From Nitrospinota bacterium (GTDB taxonomy: Bacteria; Nitrospinota; Nitrospinia; JACRGO01): a stretch of 8,358 nucleotides of DNA. The position numbers and the translations under genes were made by a program. The stretch spans positions 1 through 8,358 of the forward strand of contig JACRGO010000001.1 in assembly GCA_016212295.1 (NCBI GenBank), written 5' to 3'. Below the pieces are notes generated by a model that was not told the DNA's origin, searched no databases, and saw only the letters and a list, made by a program, of their open reading frames with translations. Positions 1 through 8,012 of this stretch are shown piece by piece (the first letter of the stretch is position 1; the number at the start of each line of letters is the position of its first letter).

Positions 1-1
1 T

Positions 2-88
2 AAGGCCATTGAGATTAGACCACATAACACAATACCAAAGTGGAACTATACACTTATGCCAAACGATGGATACATATCGACCAATTAA
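2..88 (+). pseudogene. C-terminal end of a possible ISAzo13-type transposase (cut by window edge)
   Basis: A frame is open from the first bases to TAA at 86-88 and encodes 28 residues, including PKWNYTLMPNDGY near the end. The pattern H-x4-PxWNYT-x2-P resembles, from memory, the last residues of Rhodopirellula/ISAzo13-type DDE transposases, which commonly end near FHPEWNYTI. The frame reads like real protein and stops 18 bases before the convergent stop of the next gene. Only the tail is in view, so I cannot tell whether the element is intact or a remnant, and I see no terminal inverted repeat. It could equally be the end of an unrelated gene. Confidence 0.3.
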
Positions 89-106
89 TTGTTGAGAATT
101 TTGGCC

Positions 107-448
107 TCAAGATTGTAAAGTTATTTTTTCTCGGACCCTTATTTTCCAATTATCATTTAACTCGTTTTGCGTAACCGGTAAATCCCCAATTATATCCCTA
201 TATTTTTGAATTATCTCATATGCAGATAGCATTATCTCGATGAATTTTAGAATACTTGTAGCTTCTGCAATGAACTGAAACTCTCCATATCCCTTTACCC
301 CGCTGGTTGCGACTTTCTCTCCAGATAATAGATCATCAGCAATATTAGCTCCTTCCAATTCAAAAGCCGACATCTCATCTGGGAAGTGCGTGTTTACTAC
401 ATTGCGAATAATTGATATAAATGCTTCTTTCGAAATGGGCTGTGTCAT
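107..448 (-). CDS. Small protein of unknown function (113 aa)
   Basis: I do not recognise this protein. It starts MTQPISKEAF and looks mainly helical and soluble, with no signal peptide or membrane segment. A central stretch (IADDLLSGEK, then a glycine-rich VKGYGEFQF) is followed by a hydrophobic helix (ILKFIEIMLSAYEIIQKY) and a basic C-terminus. I chose the ATG at 448 because an AAGGAG ribosome-binding site sits five bases upstream (454-459). A GTG at 454 would extend it by two codons but overlaps that site. It stands alone: the upstream gap is about 500 bases of hairpin-rich DNA, and a possible transposase end converges on it from the left. The good ribosome-binding site and protein-like composition support a real gene. 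Confidence 0.6.
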   Translation of the reverse strand: MTQPISKEAFISIIRNVVNTHFPDEMSAFELEGANIADDLLSGEKVATSGVKGYGEFQFIAEATSILKFIEIMLSAYEIIQKYRDIIGDLPVTQNELNDNWKIRVREKITLQS

Positions 449-542
449 AAGCACTCCTTATGATGTAGTTGATCTTAATAGAAATTTGGGTATTTTTTTA
501 AACGTTGAGTATTTTCATTTTTTATAACATTATGCCAGAAAA

Positions 543-563
543 CCCTCAGGCTTTGCCTGGGGG
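543..563. repeat. GC-rich stem-loop 1
   Basis: Arms CCCTCAGGC (543-551) and GCCTGGGGG (555-563) pair over nine bases with one G-T pair and a TTT loop. First of three similar hairpins in this gap. There is no T-run directly after it on either strand, so it does not look like a simple intrinsic terminator. Confidence 0.6.
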
Positions 564-593
564 ATGAATGGCATCCTTTTAGAGCAGGGGTTT

Positions 594-616
594 TTAGGGG
601 ACGGCGAGTCCCCTAA
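594..616. repeat. GC-rich stem-loop 2
   Basis: Arms TTAGGGGAC (594-602) and GTCCCCTAA (608-616) are perfect nine-base inverted repeats around a five-base GGCGA loop. The site lies between stem-loop 1 and a 9-base tandem repeat. Confidence 0.7.
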
Positions 617-622
617 TAATCG

Positions 623-648
623 TTTGTAACATTTGTAACATTTAAACA
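623..648. repeat. 9-base tandem repeat
   Basis: TTTGTAACA occurs twice in direct succession (623-631 and 632-640), followed by a degenerate third unit TTTAAACA (641-648). It could be an iterated protein-binding site or simple repeat slippage. Nothing nearby decides between these. Confidence 0.6.
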
Positions 649-676
649 ATCCGCCGCACTTTGTTCGGCTAAAAAG

Positions 677-697
677 CCACCGGGCTCTGCCCGGTGG
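677..697. repeat. GC-rich stem-loop 3
   Basis: Arms CCACCGGGC (677-685) and GCCCGGTGG (689-697) form a perfect nine-base stem with a TCT loop. A smaller overlapping inverted repeat, GGCT/AGCC (667-670 and 675-678), competes with its left arm. Same style as the other two hairpins here and the cluster at 4378-4501: GC-rich arms and a loop of three to five bases. Confidence 0.7.
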
Positions 698-784
698 TAA
701 TTTACTCCAAAATATACAAAAGTTTAGCATTATGGCGTATAAAAATTCAAAGACTCCTTGCCCCCTGAGAGCCTGTTTTACAAT

Positions 785-868
785 CCGGCTTCCGCTCAGG
801 TTTCCAGCCGGCCACGACGCGACGGGCAAGGCCGCCTGAATGGGGCCGCACCTTGACGGGCGTTGCCC
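785..868. repeat. Nested inverted repeats in a GC-rich island
   Basis: Several pairings fall within 84 bases: CCGGCT/AGCCGG (785-790 and 806-811), CAAGG/CCTTG (827-831 and 851-855) and GGGC/GCCC (858-861 and 865-868). GACGGGC also recurs directly at 821-827 and 855-861. The island is GC-richer than its surroundings. It may be a repeat-family member or a structured RNA. I do not recognise a known RNA family. Confidence 0.35.
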
Positions 869-903
869 AAAGCAATTTGCTAATGAGGGTGATTCCACTT
901 TTT

Positions 904-940
904 TAAAGGTTCTAATGGGTGACCCCATTTATGACCTTTA
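904..940. repeat. Two-tier hairpin after the methyltransferase-like gene
   Basis: Outer arms TAAAGGT/ACCTTTA (904-910 and 934-940) enclose inner arms AATGGG/CCCATT (914-919 and 924-929), all perfect, with small internal bulges and a TGAC loop. It begins 14 bases past the stop of the operon that ends at 955, so it could help end that transcript or protect its 3' end. On the minus strand the bases after the stem are A-rich, not T-rich, so a standard intrinsic terminator is not supported in that direction. Confidence 0.45.
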
Positions 941-954
941 ATAGTCAGTGGGAT

Positions 955-2109
955 TCATGGTTGATAAGTCAACAATACACCTCTCGCAAAAAATGTTCTC
1001 TCTTTTGTAGACGCAATGTACTCCCGAAATTCATCGCCAAAGAAAATCGGGAAGACTTCAAGCGCATCTTCGTATGAATCAAAACCCCATACCGTATCAA
1101 TTTCTTGCTTCTCGAAGCCCCCATCAATAAGCTTGCGCAAGAAATATTCCTTTTTCTGCCGATGTTGTTCAACTCGTTTTCTTCCCAGGATTTCCAAGGA
1201 CTGATTCATGCCAACAATGCCTGGGGCACTAGTCACTAAGAATACGCGAACGTTTTTGAGACTCCTTAGTCGGCAAAGAAAATCATCCATTGGCCCATAA
1301 TCGTTATCCCACGGGTTAGACAGAGCCCAGAAAGAAAATATATCGCAATCATCCTCCAAAGTATACATCAAAGCATCGGAAAGATTGGCTTGCACATTTG
1401 CCAAGCCGCCTAATTCCAAAACTGTGTTCAACCAGTTGCACATAGAAGAATTCTTCTCCAGAGCTGTCAACTCCTTCACCAGTTTTGACAACCTCAGTGT
1501 ATACTTACCTGTGCCAGGTCCAACCTCGATAACTTTTCTGCCATAGCACACTTTACTACTGAGCTTCGACCAAACGGAATCGTGACAATCTTGGGCTTGT
1601 GAGAGACAGTTATATAGTATGGTTCTTTTCGTATAAATGTCATCCCAGCCGTTGCTTGCAGCTAAAAAGGAATCGCTGATCTCATGCGAGACCCCTCTGA
1701 TGAAAATAACAGGACCATAATGATTCGTCATAATTCCGCAAGCAAGTACTCCCGACAAGCAAGAACCGTATTGTGCCGCTCTATATCTGGTTCCGTACTC
1801 ATACATAGTCGTCAAATATCTCTTTATTGGAGGAAAGAAGTATTGTGATGCATGTGTGAGCTCACCAGCTGACGAAACGAGATGAAAACCATCATGAAAT
1901 TTGCTGTCAGCGGCTGAAAATTTCAGTAGAAGCGATACAATATTATCAATTCCAGAAACAGGCGAAATCTCGCACCTAAGAGGCGCGATTTCTAGTTGCT
2001 CTAAAGCATCGTACAGAACAACCCCTACTCCTGTGAACCGATCATCCTTTGCGCGCGCCATTCTACCAAGAATCGCGGACAAATACTTGTATCCGCTATA
2101 TAGTTTCAT
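955..2109 (-). CDS. DAC/DisA-like domain fused to a class I SAM-dependent methyltransferase domain (384 aa)
   Basis: Two domains are visible. Residues about 20-140 resemble diadenylate cyclase (DAC, DisA_N) domains: a GVGVVLYD strand, then a helix ending at FHDG (71-74, equivalent to LHDGA), then GTRYRAA (106-112, equivalent to GTRHRAA) and a strand after YGPV. Canonical DGA is DGF here, RHR is RYR, and the acidic SEE-type motif is not evident, so nucleotide binding without normal c-di-AMP synthesis is plausible. Residues about 185-384 look like a Rossmann methyltransferase: motif I VIEVGPGTGKY (193-203), acidic E218 after the second strand, and a later LVTSAPG. The substrate is unknown. The ATG at 2109 overlaps the end of the radical SAM gene by 14 bases, with AAGG-type purines upstream, indicating coupled translation. 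No signal peptide or membrane segment is seen. The methyltransferase call is firm; the DAC-like call rests on remembered motifs. Confidence 0.75.
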   Translation of the reverse strand: MKLYSGYKYLSAILGRMARAKDDRFTGVGVVLYDALEQLEIAPLRCEISPVSGIDNIVSLLLKFSAADSKFHDGFHLVSSAGELTHASQYFFPPIKRYLTTMYEYGTRYRAAQYGSCLSGVLACGIMTNHYGPVIFIRGVSHEISDSFLAASNGWDDIYTKRTILYNCLSQAQDCHDSVWSKLSSKVCYGRKVIEVGPGTGKYTLRLSKLVKELTALEKNSSMCNWLNTVLELGGLANVQANLSDALMYTLEDDCDIFSFWALSNPWDNDYGPMDDFLCRLRSLKNVRVFLVTSAPGIVGMNQSLEILGRKRVEQHRQKKEYFLRKLIDGGFEKQEIDTVWGFDSYEDALEVFPIFFGDEFREYIASTKERTFFARGVLLTYQP

Positions 2110-3157
2110 CTTGTAAATCCTTGCCTTTATAAGTTGTGTACCACAATGACCGATAATTCTGCCATCGCCGAGGGACTATGCTGTCATTATCAATAATCTC
2201 CTCGAAGAATCTCCTAGCTTCAAGGTAGAACGTAATGTCATCAGCACCCTTACACCGCAAAAAGTGAGCATCTGTTGTATGCGGTTGAAATATGTTGAAG
2301 ACTGGAAACCCTGTCAATAATTGATTGATGGCAAGGAACTCTTTTCTCAAACCACAAAATTTTTCAAGACCAACAATGTATGAATACGCTGTGATTACGC
2401 CTAGTTCATTCGCACACTCCATGATTTTCATTATGCCGCCAATTGAATAGTTGGCTTTACTCAACCTTAATATTTCCGTTCGTCTTGATAGGGTTTCCAG
2501 AGCGAAGGTATACCTGAATCTCATGTGGCACACAGCAGCCAGTTGCTCGCGCGTTACAATCTCAGTACCCAAATAGTACATTTCGCCATCGAATCTCCGT
2601 CTTGTAGCACACTCGTAAATGTCCCGCAAGTGGCTTATCAACCTATCCGCACTATTAAAACATCCTGTCACCAAAGCAATCTCCGAAAGGTTCGCAAAGA
2701 AGTCTTTGCCATATCGTCTCTCAAGGTTTTCAAAGAATAAGTCTACATCAGATTTCGCCTTTATTGTCTCTCGATCCTTCGGTGTCTGTAGCCCAAAGCA
2801 AAACTTGCATCCGCGACACAGACTCCTGCTATGGGAATTAAAACATAACTCATGGTTATTCTTTCTAAGATACACAGCGTCACAAGTATCATCCTCTGCG
2901 GCAAAAATATCCCCCATCTTCTCCCCATCCAGAATTAGACTATCACCTACGATTCTGAAAGGAGAGATTGCAATGTTGTTCGGGATACCAAAATAGAACG
3001 GTAAATGATACGAAAACGGCTTGAACTTAAAGCGAATCCTCTGATGAGGCAGATCACTATTGACACCACATACGTTCAATGCTATCAACAAGATGTCAGT
3101 AAAGGGTACCTCAAAGGATTCTGCCAGCTTTTGAATCAGGCTCTGATCGACCCTCAT
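2096..3157 (-). CDS. Radical SAM protein with atypical cysteine motif (353 aa)
   Basis: The chosen start is the ATG at 3157. It follows an AAGGAGG ribosome-binding site by seven bases, and its ATGA overlaps the upstream gene's stop. An in-frame ATG at 3199 would add 14 residues but lies inside that gene. Residues 1-104 are an extra N-terminal region of unknown role. The iron-sulfur region reads C114-RG-C117-KF-C120, CX2CX2C where CX3CX2C is usual, with a further C105 nine residues before C114. Barrel-like elements follow: LVTGCFNSADRL (162-173) in place of the usual TGGE strand, FALETLS (218-224), and YSYIVGLE (258-265), which matches the glycine-leucine strand of radical SAM barrels. The C-terminus carries RRWQNYRSLW. 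No SPASM-type cysteine cluster is seen. It probably uses SAM to generate a radical on a substrate I cannot name. The 14-base overlap with the methyltransferase gene suggests one pathway. Confidence 0.8.
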   Translation of the reverse strand: MRVDQSLIQKLAESFEVPFTDILLIALNVCGVNSDLPHQRIRFKFKPFSYHLPFYFGIPNNIAISPFRIVGDSLILDGEKMGDIFAAEDDTCDAVYLRKNNHELCFNSHSRSLCRGCKFCFGLQTPKDRETIKAKSDVDLFFENLERRYGKDFFANLSEIALVTGCFNSADRLISHLRDIYECATRRRFDGEMYYLGTEIVTREQLAAVCHMRFRYTFALETLSRRTEILRLSKANYSIGGIMKIMECANELGVITAYSYIVGLEKFCGLRKEFLAINQLLTGFPVFNIFQPHTTDAHFLRCKGADDITFYLEARRFFEEIIDNDSIVPRRWQNYRSLWYTTYKGKDLQDETI

Positions 3158-3166
3158 GGTGCAACC
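3154..3166 (-). promoter_or_regulatory. Ribosome-binding site and ATGA stop/start overlap
   Basis: On the minus strand AAGGAGG is followed seven bases later by ATGA. The ATG starts the radical SAM gene and TGA ends the upstream small gene. This fixes the radical SAM start and indicates translational coupling. Confidence 0.75.
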
Positions 3167-3420
3167 TCCTTGATCTCTCCTGAAAGGTAAACCAACCATG
3201 CCTTGGCTGTTATAGCAAACCGATCTTGATTAACACCATAAATCAGATTTGCTTGACTACTAACATCCTTAAGGAAAATTGAGAAATACTTTGTCGATAC
3301 ATATCCTGGGACTATCAAATTACCAGTTTTAGGACAACTCAGCAAAAACTCCCTCGAAGGTTCAATCGTTTTGTCTTTCAAGTTCCAGTCACCATCCCAA
3401 CGATGATTGCCTCCCATCAT
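3154..3420 (-). CDS. Small unknown protein heading the radical SAM operon (88 aa or longer)
   Basis: Not recognised. The protein is rich in aromatic residues (NHRWDGDWNLK near the start) and ends in a likely helix (FAITAKAWLVYLSG) with no membrane segment. Its TGA overlaps the radical SAM start codon as ATGA, strong evidence that it is translated and co-expressed. The start is uncertain. ATG at 3420 and 3417 both lack a clear ribosome-binding site, and the frame stays open upstream to a TAG at 3502-3504. That extension encodes protein-like sequence (ALGKGVKNVSYIEHA) but has no ATG, GTG or TTG. Either initiation is unusual, for example CTG at 3466-3468, or this is the 3' remnant of a longer gene. 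It could be a substrate, a partner or a small accessory subunit; the sequence does not say which. Confidence 0.5.
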   Translation of the reverse strand: MMGGNHRWDGDWNLKDKTIEPSREFLLSCPKTGNLIVPGYVSTKYFSIFLKDVSSQANLIYGVNQDRFAITAKAWLVYLSGEIKEVAP

Positions 3421-3533
3421 TGCATGTTCAATGTAACTGACGTTCTTTACGCCTTTGCCAAGCGCCAGCTTACTCTGCTTAAAGTGAGTAAAGAGGAAAA
3501 ACTAAAACTTTGTGCTCCTTGAGTCTGGTTATT

Positions 3534-3573
3534 GAGATTTATTTGTGGTTTGATGCTTGCCATTTGGAATTTT
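3534..3573. repeat. AT-rich dispersed repeat, copy A
   Basis: This reads GAGATTTATTTGT, then TTTG, then TTGCCATTTGGAATTTTT, matching copies at 4515-4555 and 8092-8125 (consensus GA-rATTTATTTGTAATTTG then CCATTTGAAATTTT). It begins 48 bases past the toxin stop at 3621 in transcription order. Between it and the stop is a short tandem repeat, TCCGCGCTCA then TCCGCGGCTCA (3576-3596). Confidence 0.65.
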
Positions 3574-3575
3574 TA

Positions 3576-3596
3576 TCCGCGCTCATCCGCGGCTCA
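3576..3596. repeat. 10/11-base tandem repeat
   Basis: TCCGCGCTCA (3576-3585) is followed at once by TCCGCGGCTCA (3586-3596). The CCGCG/CGCGG bases can also pair as a small stem. It occupies the same place relative to AT-rich copy A as the heptamer array does relative to copy B. Confidence 0.5.
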
Positions 3597-3620
3597 TGTC
3601 GAATTAATAACGATTTTAAA

Positions 3621-4007
3621 TCAAACTTGGATGTGCAACTCTATTTCTTCAAGAATCTCTCTTAATTTCGGCGCTCTTGACGACATCACATTCTCCTCGC
3701 TTCCTTCATGTTTATGGTGCGGATAGGTGGGGATTCCCGCTCCCTTGTGATGCCCCGTATCATCATAACGGAAGACAAGTTTTTTTGAATGGTCTACGTA
3801 CTGGTAAGCGTACATCAAACGTTCCGTGGTCTTTTCGACGTCAATAAATTCCCGAAAATGCAGAATTGAATTGTCGACAAAAAACAGCTCTCCGCGAATA
3901 AAACCTTCATAGGTCCCCCTCTTTTCAAAGGTGATATTCGTAAGTCGAACGGCAGGGCACGAGTTGACCACGGCTTGGATTTCGGAAAAATAATCTTCAA
4001 TTTTCAA
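3621..4007 (-). CDS. tumE: TumE-family toxin (DUF6516-like, 128 aa)
   Basis: This matches the TumE toxin family by its characteristic middle and end: LVFRYDDTGHH (77-87), YPHHKH (95-100), then a polar segment with an SS pair and a closing helix (LREILEEIE). The N-terminal half forms the expected beta-rich part (LFFVDNSILHFREFIDVE). Length is normal for the family. TumE proteins are annotated as toxins of type II-like pairs; the histidine-rich motif is the conserved signature, and I do not know the target. Translation appears to start at TTG 4007, the only reasonable initiator. It is preceded by GAAGAG and overlaps the antitoxin gene by 11 bases. The weak start and overlap suggest toxin output is coupled to, and kept below, antitoxin output. 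No frame damage is seen. Confidence 0.85.
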   Translation of the reverse strand: MKIEDYFSEIQAVVNSCPAVRLTNITFEKRGTYEGFIRGELFFVDNSILHFREFIDVEKTTERLMYAYQYVDHSKKLVFRYDDTGHHKGAGIPTYPHHKHEGSEENVMSSRAPKLREILEEIELHIQV

Positions 4008-4287
4008 TTCGAATACTCTTCAGCGTTTTTGATTTTTCAATCAATCGTTGCAACATTCTGAATTCCCCTATCCATTCCATGTGATCCATGGTTTCCTTTA
4101 TCATATCGCTCTCGTATTGGGCCACGAATTCCTTGGTCTCCATATGATATTTTTTCTCAAAATCCCTGAGCCTGGCTTGGGTACGATGGATACCCGCATC
4201 CATGAGCTTAATTTCATTATTCAACGCCGCCTCAACCAACGGCTTGATTTGGCGTTCCCCGGGAGAAACCAGTTTTAACTCGCACAT
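3997..4287 (-). CDS. TumA-type antitoxin partner (96 aa)
   Basis: A small, highly charged and mostly helical protein lies directly upstream of the TumE-like toxin and overlaps it by 11 bases, the usual arrangement for this pair. It contains long amphipathic helices, for example around KLMDAGIHRTQARLRDFEKKY and EFRMLQRLIEKSK, which may form coiled coils. No DNA-binding motif is obvious. The ATG at 4287 is supported by AAGGAGG ending five bases upstream. Its role as antitoxin is inferred from position and partner, since the sequence itself is not distinctive. The pair is presumably transcribed from the hairpin-rich gap on its right; no clear -35/-10 boxes were found there. Confidence 0.75.
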   Translation of the reverse strand: MCELKLVSPGERQIKPLVEAALNNEIKLMDAGIHRTQARLRDFEKKYHMETKEFVAQYESDMIKETMDHMEWIGEFRMLQRLIEKSKTLKSIRIEN

Positions 4288-4377
4288 AATAGCCTCCTTA
4301 AGAATTGGCGCTAACAGGCCTACATGGTTTATTTTCTCTTATTTAAAACAAAAATTAAAGGTTTTTCTTTCGAACAG

Positions 4378-4501
4378 TACGAGGCGGAGCCTCGTAACCC
4401 GGCATTCCCAGGCAGGAGCCTGGAACGAGAATAGCCGCCATCACACACCCCGGCCTTCGGCCACCCCTCTCAAGAGGGGAATTTCCAAGGAAGATCCTTG
4501 G
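4378..4501. repeat. Cluster of five short palindromes
   Basis: Five perfect inverted repeats in 124 bases: TACGAGGC/GCCTCGTA (4378-4396, loop GGA), CCAGGC/GCCTGG (4408-4423, loop AGGA), GGCC/GGCC (4452-4462, loop TTC), CCCCTCT/AGAGGGG (4464-4479, loop CA) and CCAAGGA/TCCTTGG (4485-4501, loop AGA). Arms are GC-rich with tiny loops, in an AT-rich setting, like REP-type elements. One or more could end pump transcripts, but no T-run marks a specific terminator. Confidence 0.7.
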
Positions 4502-4514
4502 TCATTGGGATTTT

Positions 4515-4555
4515 GAGTTTATTTGTAATTTGAATTTTGCCATTTGAAATTTTGC
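4515..4555. repeat. AT-rich dispersed repeat, copy B
   Basis: This reads GAGTTTATTTGTAATTTG, then TTGCCATTTGAAATTTTG. It is the best-conserved copy of the family also seen at 3534-3573 and 8092-8125. It lies 46 bases past the pump stop in transcription order, nearly the same offset as copy A from the toxin stop. Confidence 0.65.
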
Positions 4556-4560
4556 CTCTC

Positions 4561-4591
4561 TTCGACGTTGGACGTTCAATGTTCGACGTTC
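4561..4591. repeat. Heptamer tandem repeat
   Basis: Four 7-base units TTCGACG, TTGGACG, TTCAATG, TTCGACG and a partial TTC run without gaps from 4561 to 4591, ten bases past the pump stop codon. Units differ at one to three positions. Confidence 0.65.
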
Positions 4592-4600
4592 ATTTTTCCC

Positions 4601-7600
4601 TCACTCTTCCTCCTCCTGCCTCGGCAGGCCGTGGCCAGGACGCTTGGCGTACACCAGGTGATAAACCACGGGGATAACGCCCAGGGTGAAGAGAGTCGAG
4701 GCCGTGATGCCGAAGATGATGGACCAGGCCAGGCCGGAAAAAATGGGGTCCAGCGTGATGACGATATTCCCCAGAAAGGCCGTGCCCGCGGTGAGGAAGA
4801 TGGGCCTCATGCGGATGGCGCCGGACTGCACCAGGGCCTCCTCTAAATCCAGTCCCTTGCGCAGGGCGTGGTGGAAAAAATCCACCAGCACCACGGAGTT
4901 TCGCACCACGATGCCCGCCAGCGCGATCATGCCTATCATGGCCGTGGCCGTGAAAAAAACCGGGTTCGGGTTTCCGTTGATGACCCTTTCTCCAATGGCG
5001 TTAAGGGCCCAGAATCCGGGCATGATCCCCACCATGGTGAGCGGGATGGCCAGCATCATGATCCCGGAGATGGCGGCGGAGCCGGTCTGCATCATGAGCA
5101 CCAGGAAAATCCCGGCCAAGGCCGCGCCGAAGGCAATGCCCAAATCACGGAACACATCCACCGTTATCTTCCACTCCCCCTCCCCGCCCCAGACAACCTT
5201 TGCCCCGGAAGGGAGCGTCCACGGAATCCCCCCGCCCTGGGAGAGATAGGTCCTTTTCTTCAGCGGCCTGGGTCCGGTGGAGGATTGTGCCTCGCCGCCG
5301 GATTTCTGGAGGTCCGCATCCACGTCCAGCACGATATCCGCCGGCGGCCTTCCGGCTGTGTCCGCGAACACATAAGCCACCCGCTTCAGATTCTTGTGGT
5401 AGATGGTTTTGTCCGCCAGGGTGGTTTCAAAGTTCCCTATCTCGCCCAGTTGGGTCAAGGGCTGGGGGGCATCGCGCAGGGACACTCCCTCCCTGATCTT
5501 GGTGTAACCCGGACGCCCCTTGATGAAAAGAGAAACTATTCCGGCGGGATCGGAGCGTTGGGGCCGCGGCAACTGCAAAATAACCGGCAGGGGATAGGCC
5601 TCGCTTGGAATATTCAGGTTCGCGGCCTCCATGCCGTGGGCCGCGAGCCGGACCGTTTGCGCGATCTCCTCCGTGCCGATAGCCGAAAGAGCCGCCTTTT
5701 CCTTATCGGTCCTAAATACCAGGCGGGTCTGGTCGGCCTCCACCGAGGTGTCCACGTCCGTCACGAAGGGCTCCTTGCGCAGGCGCTCGGCTACTGCCAG
5801 GGCGGCCTTCTGAAACACAGGATAGGGAGTGTCCTCCTCGCCATGGATCTCGGCGGTGACGGTGGAGATCACCGGCGGACCCGGCGGGACCTCCACGAGC
5901 TTGATGTTGGCGTTGTTCCTTTTGGCGATCCGTTCGAGATCGGCCCTGATACGCAGAAGGATTTCATGGGACTGGTGGACCCTCTTTTTTTTATGGGCCA
6001 GGTTGACGCGCAGGTCCGCCATGTTGGCCCCATCGCGCAGGAAGTAGTGCCGCACCATGCCGTTAAAGTCCATGGGGGAGGGCGTTCCCACGAATCCCGT
6101 GAACATGGCCGCCTCTGGCACGGAGCGGAAATACTCGGCCAGCTCGCGCGTCACCCCTTGCGTCTCCTCCAGGGTCGTCCCCTCCGGCATGTCGATCACA
6201 ATCTGGAATTCGTTCTTGTTATCGAAAGGCAACATCTTGAGCGGCACGAGCCGCAGGGCGGGAAGAATCACCGCCAGGGCGAAGAGGAGTCCGATGCCCC
6301 CCAGAAAGGCCAGACCCAGGGCGCGGCTTCGCAGCAGGGGCCGCAGCAGGGAATTATAAATTTTATAGAGAAGCGTGCGCCGGACGTCATACTCCCCTTC
6401 CGCGCTTTCTCTTGTCCTGGGCTTGAGGATAAGCCGCGAGGCGTAAGGCGTCACGCAAAAGGCCACGATCAGGCTCATGAAGATGGTGAGCGGCACATTC
6501 AGGGCCATGGGCCGCATGTAGGGTCCCATCATGCCGGTGATGAAGAACATGGGCACGAAGGAGAGGATCACGGCGATGGTGGACATGATCAGGGCGGGCC
6601 GGATCTCCTGCACCGCGGCGAGGATGGCCGGGCGAGGCTTCCATGTCCCCATCGAAAAATACCGCTCGATGTTTTCCACGTCCGTGATGGGATCGTCCAC
6701 GAGGATGCCCAAGGCCAGGATGAGCGCGAACAGGGTCACGCGGTTGATGGTGTATCCGGCCATGAGATTGATCAAGAGAGTCGCGCCGTAGCAGACCGGG
6801 ACCGCCAACGCGATGACCAGCGCCGCGCGCCAGCCGAGGACTAAACCAACGAAAATCACAACGGAGAGGATGGCGACCGCCAGGGCCTCCACTAGCTCGT
6901 CGACCTTCTCATCCGCGGTGTCGCCGTAGTCGCGGGTGATGTTGAAATGCACTTGGGGCGGGAAGATCTTTTTCGAGAGGCACTCCAGGGTCTCCCGCGC
7001 GTCCCGCGCCACCCAGACCGCGTTGGCCCCTTTTTTCTTGGCCACCGCGAGGTGGACCGCCGGATAGACCCCGCCGGACTTGGCTATTCCGTCCTTTTCC
7101 CCGGACGCGGCGGGGCCGAACCCGATCCACGAATAGCTGAAGACCTCGGCCGGACCATCGATCACCTCGGCCACGTCCTTGAGGTAGACAGGGATGCCGT
7201 CCACCACGTTCACCACCAGATTCTGGATCTCCTCCACCCCGCGAAAGAAGACGCCCGCCTCCACCAGAATGGCCTCGTTCTTTTGCTCGATGGTCCCGGC
7301 CGGGAGCTGGATGTTGCCCACCCGCAGAGCGAAGGCCACCTCCAGCGGAGTGGTGCGGCGCGCGGCCAGGGCGTGATTGTTCAGTTCCACGCGCACCGCG
7401 CGCGGCCTCCCGCCCGTTACCGTCACGCGGTTGGTGTCCTTCACGGCCTGGAGGGAAAGCTCCACCTCTTCCGCGAGCCGCCTGAGCTGGTGGTCGTCGA
7501 AATTTTCCGGATCGTCGCTCCACAGGGTGGCGATGAGGATGGGCACGTCGTCAATCTCCACCGGCTTCACCACCCATCCGGCCACTGAGGGCGGGACCTT

Positions 7601-7996
7601 GTCCGTGTTGGACTGTATCTTGTTATAAATCTTGACCAGGCTGTCCTCGCGTCCTTCCCCCACGTAAAAGCGGACCGTGACCACGGAAGACCCTTCCTTC
7701 GACATGGAGTATACGTATTCCACGCCGTCGATCTGGGAGAGGAGTTTTTCCAGGGGGGTGGAGACCTGGCGCTCTACTTGTTCGGCGGAAAGGCCGGGCG
7801 CGGAGATCAGGACGTCGGCCAAAGGCACCACGATCTGCGGCTCCTCTTCCCTGGGGGTGAGGAGCAGGGCGACCCCTCCCGCGATGAGGGAGAGGAGAAT
7901 GACCAGCACGGGGAGCGGCCCCTGGAGGAACGCGGACACGATGCGGGCGCTGAAGCCCAGGGAGTCGGCGGGATTGTTTTTTTGAAGGTTTTGCAT
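4601..7996 (-). CDS. RND-family efflux permease (AcrB-like, 1131 aa)
   Basis: An inner-membrane proton-driven pump of the AcrB/HAE superfamily. Visible layout: first membrane helix (about 27-47), large periplasmic loop (about 48-365), a block of helices from about 366 to 525, a second periplasmic loop (about 590-945), and closing helices from about 950 to 1115. The proton-relay pair DD434-435 lies in GILVDDPITDVENI, as in the fourth helix of AcrB. In the AcrB tenth-helix lysine region the sequence is GIVVRNSVVLVDFF (1028-1041), with arginine at the lysine position, a pattern I associate with a subgroup of RND pumps. The length is slightly above the usual 1030-1060. The ATG at 7996 is the first possible start after an in-frame stop; no clear ribosome-binding site precedes it. 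No membrane-fusion adaptor or TolC-like gene is beside it, so partners must lie elsewhere. GC content is far higher than in the genes to the left. Substrate unknown. Confidence 0.95.
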   Translation of the reverse strand: MQNLQKNNPADSLGFSARIVSAFLQGPLPVLVILLSLIAGGVALLLTPREEEPQIVVPLADVLISAPGLSAEQVERQVSTPLEKLLSQIDGVEYVYSMSKEGSSVVTVRFYVGEGREDSLVKIYNKIQSNTDKVPPSVAGWVVKPVEIDDVPILIATLWSDDPENFDDHQLRRLAEEVELSLQAVKDTNRVTVTGGRPRAVRVELNNHALAARRTTPLEVAFALRVGNIQLPAGTIEQKNEAILVEAGVFFRGVEEIQNLVVNVVDGIPVYLKDVAEVIDGPAEVFSYSWIGFGPAASGEKDGIAKSGGVYPAVHLAVAKKKGANAVWVARDARETLECLSKKIFPPQVHFNITRDYGDTADEKVDELVEALAVAILSVVIFVGLVLGWRAALVIALAVPVCYGATLLINLMAGYTINRVTLFALILALGILVDDPITDVENIERYFSMGTWKPRPAILAAVQEIRPALIMSTIAVILSFVPMFFITGMMGPYMRPMALNVPLTIFMSLIVAFCVTPYASRLILKPRTRESAEGEYDVRRTLLYKIYNSLLRPLLRSRALGLAFLGGIGLLFALAVILPALRLVPLKMLPFDNKNEFQIVIDMPEGTTLEETQGVTRELAEYFRSVPEAAMFTGFVGTPSPMDFNGMVRHYFLRDGANMADLRVNLAHKKKRVHQSHEILLRIRADLERIAKRNNANIKLVEVPPGPPVISTVTAEIHGEEDTPYPVFQKAALAVAERLRKEPFVTDVDTSVEADQTRLVFRTDKEKAALSAIGTEEIAQTVRLAAHGMEAANLNIPSEAYPLPVILQLPRPQRSDPAGIVSLFIKGRPGYTKIREGVSLRDAPQPLTQLGEIGNFETTLADKTIYHKNLKRVAYVFADTAGRPPADIVLDVDADLQKSGGEAQSSTGPRPLKKRTYLSQGGGIPWTLPSGAKVVWGGEGEWKITVDVFRDLGIAFGAALAGIFLVLMMQTGSAAISGIMMLAIPLTMVGIMPGFWALNAIGERVINGNPNPVFFTATAMIGMIALAGIVVRNSVVLVDFFHHALRKGLDLEEALVQSGAIRMRPIFLTAGTAFLGNIVITLDPIFSGLAWSIIFGITASTLFTLGVIPVVYHLVYAKRPGHGLPRQEEEE

Positions 7997-8012
7997 TTGT
8001 ATTTAGCTTACA

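Follow-up and report, generated by a model that had tools for sequence, protein, structure and literature searches.

A diadenylate cyclase (DAC) domain assigned by its sequence to the PanS family is joined in one reading frame to a class I methyltransferase in a Nitrospinota bacterium, and the fusion gene is translationally coupled to the gene of a predicted radical SAM enzyme upstream. Enzyme domains of the DAC part's type produce alarm nucleotides in defence against phages. The operon may be a nucleotide-making and nucleotide-tailoring module, in which the product of the DAC domain would be modified by the radical SAM enzyme and the methyltransferase. This proposal is put forward tentatively, at less than even confidence.

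Architecture of the fusion gene

The window, i.e., the whole stretch of 8,358 nucleotides that was analyzed (contig JACRGO010000001.1), contains the following features:

955-2109, minus: DAC-methyltransferase fusion gene, 384 codons (958-2109); single open frame, both halves with independent homologues
1675..2109, minus: PanS-type DAC domain, residues 1-145; match to 37jy_A and alignments A1 and A3
1882..1896, minus: HDGFH motif at residues 72-76, in the place of DGA; HDG unchanged across the family
1774..1794, minus: GTRYRAA motif at residues 106-112, in the place of GTRHRAA; G106, R108 and A112 invariant in A1/A3
955..1662, minus: class I methyltransferase domain, residues 150-384; RrnaAD above cut-off, collinear with the stand-alone methyltransferase of locus L021
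1507..1527, minus: SAM-binding motif EVGPGTG, residues 195-201; direct reading and alignment
2096..3157, minus: predicted radical SAM enzyme, 353 aa, 14-base overlap with the start of the fusion gene; family scan, AlphaFold2, Foldseek and VIA-align
2798..2818, minus: CRGCKFC cluster motif (CX2CX2C); spacing found in every scanned family member
3154..3420, minus: 88 aa open reading frame, stop overlapping the radical SAM start (ATGA); position only

In a preliminary description, the stretch 955-2109 had been read as a DAC-like domain apparently fused to a methyltransferase. The open reading frame is real and lies on the minus strand; the plus strand across it is full of stops. The coupled radical SAM gene had been overlooked, and the comparative evidence makes it the central partner. 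In one uninterrupted frame, a DAC-like domain (residues ~1-145) precedes an entire class I methyltransferase (~150-384), and each half matches a whole stand-alone protein end to end. The joining of a DAC-family domain to a Rossmann methyltransferase was confirmed by the matches to 37jy_A and RrnaAD and by the stand-alone homologues of each half. A frameshift artefact was considered as the origin of the fusion and rejected, there being no break in the frame and nothing missing from either half. The arrangement had been called unfamiliar, and the searches gave no other such fusion. A scan of genome contigs with the whole fusion protein found no relative, the 77 genomes of the phylum held no second copy, and phage records gave no match.

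Comparison of the N-terminal part with profile and structure databases gave the DAC-like match that had been anticipated. Pfam PF02457 remained below threshold (E 0.0073; 16.3 bits against a family cut-off of 27 bits), while residues 12-139 matched PDB chain 37jy_A (“Panoptoo PanS synthase”) with E 6e-20. The aligned part of this chain is identical, letter for letter, to the protein of a Rhizobium etli plasmid gene (L008:5983-6426). The window domain shares with this PanS the DAC sequence, the HDGF and GxRY motifs and the domain length. It differs in being fused to a methyltransferase and in having a radical SAM partner, with neither a Cap15 effector nor CBASS found. The canonical c-di-AMP synthases (CdaA, DisA, CdaM; PF02457) are remote homologues sharing the DG and G-x-R signature positions, and the window domain retains the D and the first R; however, it has DGF for DGA, RYR for RHR and no SEE. 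A separate canonical DAC above the PF02457 cut-off (L092) is present in the window genome.

These motif changes (HDGF, GTRYRAA, SEE absent) had been noticed before and are real, but the suggestion that they mark a degenerate sensor was not supported. DGF and the GxR arginine were each found in 10/10 PanS-type rows and SEE was absent from all ten, so that the same changes run throughout the PanS family, including the solved protein that its depositors named a synthase. All family-invariant residues are present in the window domain (alignments A1 and A3), and its GTRYRAA is nearer to the canonical GTRHRAA than is the GGRYLAA of the solved PanS. Since the invariant residues are retained, its sequence gives no sign of lower activity than that of PanS. 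In a tree of DAC sequences, the window domain was not united with that of Micrarchaeota locus L090.

The methyltransferase half contains the Rossmann SAM-binding motif I. RrnaAD matched above its cut-off (E 6.6e-7) over residues 191-245 only, and ksgA reached 32.5 bits against a cut-off of 171 over residues 189-252 only. Matches to KsgA/Erm were confined to the region of the SAM-binding motif, a full-length match being absent. The stand-alone full-length methyltransferase of locus L021 (E 2e-20) aligns from window residue ~141 to the end, N-terminal part included, and has BioC, a carboxyl methyltransferase, as its best-scoring match. A reading as an N6-adenine methyltransferase, based on the SNPW/NAPW stretch, was dropped on account of this best score.

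The radical SAM partner and its neighbours in other genomes

The Pfam radical SAM profile matched the product of 2096-3157 with E 0.12 only. A family scan gave 71 related loci, and the family is unnamed. Its AlphaFold2 model (55 aligned rows) reached a pLDDT of 92.5 and a pTM of 0.91. In Foldseek and VIA-align comparisons, radical SAM enzymes ranked first, with Z about 12-13 and many ties; since the scores were tied, no closest relative was picked. A viperin-like function was not adopted, viperin being tied with many other radical SAM folds. The canonical CX3CX2C motif is absent, and CX2CX2C is found throughout the family; non-canonical spacings of the cluster motif occur in the radical SAM superfamily. 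Based on the model, the enzyme has the partial or full TIM barrel of this superfamily, as a member of which it would bind a 4Fe-4S cluster and cleave SAM. The predicted fold is shared with lipoyl synthase, biotin synthase and viperin, from which the enzyme differs by its ~10% identity, the CX2CX2C motif and an extra N-terminal domain of ~95 residues.

The 88 aa open reading frame before the radical SAM gene had no Pfam, NCBIfam, PADLOC or PDB match. A TumE toxin and TumA-like antitoxin pair (3621-4287, minus) lies directly upstream of the operon, and a 115 aa open reading frame (107-454, minus) without a family match lies 500 bases downstream of the fusion gene. The RND efflux pump gene (4500-8000) has a GC content of 61%, against 42% for the part with the DAC, radical SAM and TumAE genes (1-4500). 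The low-GC part is probably transferred DNA; an assembly join is also possible as the cause of the GC step.

In other lineages, each half of the fusion follows the radical SAM gene as a separate protein. In Micrarchaeota locus L090, an unfused PanS-type DAC lies directly downstream of it (E 3.6e-32), and in Micrarchaeota locus L021 the window-type methyltransferase does so, with no DAC. Thus, the window fuses those two proteins. Among 301 Micrarchaeota genomes, a PanS-type DAC was found in one and the radical SAM enzyme in two, and the DAC adjoins one of these two. In the phylum of the window, the fusion occurs in 1/77 genomes and the radical SAM enzyme in that same genome. This sporadic distribution suggests horizontal transfer.

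Across 78 radical SAM loci, which are not independent (many are from Streptomyces) and among which a tree gave the window no exact position, a DAC-like gene was present in 4, a GGDEF-like gene with intact GGDEV or GGDEI in 20, and a GrpB nucleotidyltransferase gene in 8. Phosphoketolase without any detected cyclase was seen in 36/78; therefore, the radical SAM enzyme can do without a cyclase. Unnamed actinomycete clusters surround the CX2CX2C radical SAM gene in L015-L020, L027-L062, L065-L077 and L080-L088, with genes for phosphoketolase, mandelate-racemase-like, HAD, methyltransferase, PhyH and OmdA-like proteins. A GGDEF-like protein (GGDEV or GGDEI) is encoded in 20 loci, in several of them fused to an OmdA-like part. 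These phosphoketolase-radical SAM clusters have the radical SAM family and often a methyltransferase in common with the window, but contain several further sugar-modifying enzymes and have GGDEF where the window has DAC. In Patescibacteria and Bacillota, the GrpB gene follows the radical SAM gene, mostly directly (L044, L063, L064, L074, L078, L079, L089, L021), and several of these loci are also near phosphoglycerate-mutase-like and Nudix genes.

The neighbours bear on a somewhat unlikely alternative, namely that the operon is a small-molecule biosynthetic cassette in which the DAC-like domain would act on a metabolite, as nucleotidyltransferase or nucleotide carrier, without a second messenger being made. 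It would fit the co-occurrence of the radical SAM family with phosphoketolase, mandelate-racemase-like, HAD, PhyH and TPP decarboxylase genes as well as the BioC-like relative of the methyltransferase. However, the loci of the window and L090 have no sugar-cleaving enzymes. The activity for which DAC, GGDEF and related domains are known is the joining of two nucleotides, and we know of no DAC that transfers nucleotides to other acceptors.

PanS relatives next to Cap15 and CBASS

The preliminary description had also linked the domain to conflict systems, and this link was borne out: PanS relatives precede Cap15 genes and often adjoin CBASS. A tblastn search against plasmids gave 14 records, all matching the DAC part only, with homologues reaching E 1e-15; one of them, L009, clears the PF02457 cut-off by itself (30.2 bits). 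A gene with a Cap15 cyclic-dinucleotide receptor domain follows the small DAC gene in 5/6 plasmid loci examined. A type II CBASS operon adjoins the DAC gene in 4/6, with none seen near the L009 DAC and the L010 record being without annotation. The same DAC with a 2TM-beta-like gene was found in two prophage-type contigs (L095 among them), and Cap15 was confirmed in both. The viral contigs searched held no radical SAM relative; the PanS relatives there were PanS with Cap15. In Mesorhizobium, PanS is followed by a gene (L007:6368-7810) in which a Cap15 receptor domain is joined to a nucleoside-phosphorylase-like domain (PNP_UDP_1); it may encode an effector variant, unlike the usual 2TM form, that cleaves nucleosides.

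A second family of DAC-like proteins, with DGA and GSxxNS and without a Pfam match, was found at L096:4307-6714, L097:4334-5378, L098:4842-5351, L022:84-614 and L023:262-708; L096 encodes a further protein of 426 aa with a weak C-terminal DAC match. In L022 and L023, the DAC-like protein (148-176 aa) is encoded upstream of the radical SAM gene and a methyltransferase downstream. Its alignment with PanS covers the positions of DGA and GSGYNS, the hhalign match being moderate (E 5.5e-5, probability 66). Its rhizobial plasmid relatives adjoin Cap15 genes and CBASS. Thus, both contexts are found for each of the two DAC-like families, and the second is possibly another Panoptoo-type synthase.

Of the parts of Panoptoo (PanS and a 2TM-beta effector), the window has the PanS-family DAC but neither an adjoining Cap15_CD_rec (2TM-beta) gene nor a neighbouring CBASS, which is common and perhaps not obligatory. 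No Cap15 was found in the scanned window open reading frames and the window genome, the same search being positive in three PanS+Cap15 records, and none in four genomes with a radical SAM-DAC pair, PanS+Cap15 records searched alongside being positive. SMODS/CD-NTase (CBASS) was not found in the window genome either, whereas the control genomes were positive. Distant partners could be lost, since the window genome is a MAG of 90.5% completeness and the contig has only 8358 bases.

In Panoptes, a cyclase unrelated to PanS silences a 2TM-beta-type effector via a decoy nucleotide (PMC12657218, PMC12657230). By analogy, Panoptes (mCpol/OptS with 2TM-beta/OptE) is likewise a conflict-type operon of two or three genes that includes a small nucleotide cyclase of constitutive type; however, mCpol has the Cas10/GGDEF palm fold, whereas the window has a DAC and is without a 2TM-beta effector. 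A literature search found no paper on Panoptoo and none linking a diadenylate cyclase to Panoptes, and we infer the mechanism of Panoptoo from Panoptes alone, by analogy.

That the window operon is a guard of the Panoptes kind is clearly unlikely. The radical SAM enzyme and the methyltransferase would replace Cap15 as effectors, kept inactive by a decoy nucleotide from the DAC for as long as no phage sponge or phosphodiesterase took it away. The position of PanS relatives before Cap15 effectors and often near CBASS would agree with this, as would the action of Panoptes mCpol by inhibition, sometimes linked to other effectors (PMC12657218, PMC12657230), the adjoining TumA/TumE pair and the GC content below that of the pump gene. 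However, with no CD-NTase (SMODS) found in the 90.5% complete genome a guard would have no CBASS to protect, the radical SAM family stands mostly in biosynthetic-looking operons, and a nucleotide-sensor domain was recognized on neither partner.

Nucleotide tailoring as a candidate role

In the proposed tailoring module, the PanS-type DAC domain would condense nucleoside triphosphates into a nucleotide, probably a cyclic dinucleotide, which would be modified by the radical SAM enzyme of the coupled gene and by the methyltransferase half of the fusion. The outcome would be a modified signal or small molecule, as opposed to the plain nucleotide of Panoptoo. The main argument is that three kinds of nucleotide-joining enzyme, i.e., DAC-like, GGDEF-like and GrpB, converge on one radical SAM family. 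Support comes from the closeness of the DAC to the solved PanS synthase, with every family-invariant residue kept, and from the stand-alone DAC (L090) and methyltransferase (L021), each encoded immediately behind this radical SAM enzyme. In addition, the sole PanS-type DAC in 301 Micrarchaeota genomes adjoins one of only two members of the radical SAM family, the second DAC-like family also stands with a radical SAM enzyme and a methyltransferase (L022, L023), and the four radical SAM-DAC genomes are without Cap15. The main caution is the biosynthetic neighbourhood in actinomycetes. Also against the proposal are the KsgA/Erm matches only at the SAM-binding motif together with a relative (L021) nearest to BioC, the 36 phosphoketolase loci without a cyclase, the separation of the window and L090 in the DAC tree, the lack of a DAC in L021 and the moderate homology of the L022/L023 protein.

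A wider version of the proposal is rather doubtful: a mobile pathway of three steps, with a cyclase (PanS-type or other), the radical SAM enzyme and the methyltransferase, would make a covalently modified cyclic dinucleotide, possibly missed by phage sponges or phosphodiesterases, and its DAC, GGDEF and nucleotidyltransferase forms would count as parallel solutions around one radical SAM family. No natural methylated c-di-AMP was apparent in the literature titles searched.

The earlier sensor view, read as an inactive DAC that detects a nucleotide and controls the attached methyltransferase, is more improbable still: SEE is absent, RHR is altered and sensors commonly have an enzyme as their fused output, but the solved PanS, called a synthase, has the same changes, the window domain keeps the invariant residues and a GTRYRAA nearer to GTRHRAA than is GGRYLAA, and the L090 DAC is unfused.

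PanS-type cyclases were otherwise met in this analysis only with membrane-attacking Cap15 effectors near CBASS. The fusion and its coupling to a radical SAM gene, with the same partners in archaea and other bacteria, point either to the chemical alteration of signal nucleotides or to a biosynthetic use of DAC-like enzymes, and either outcome would be new.
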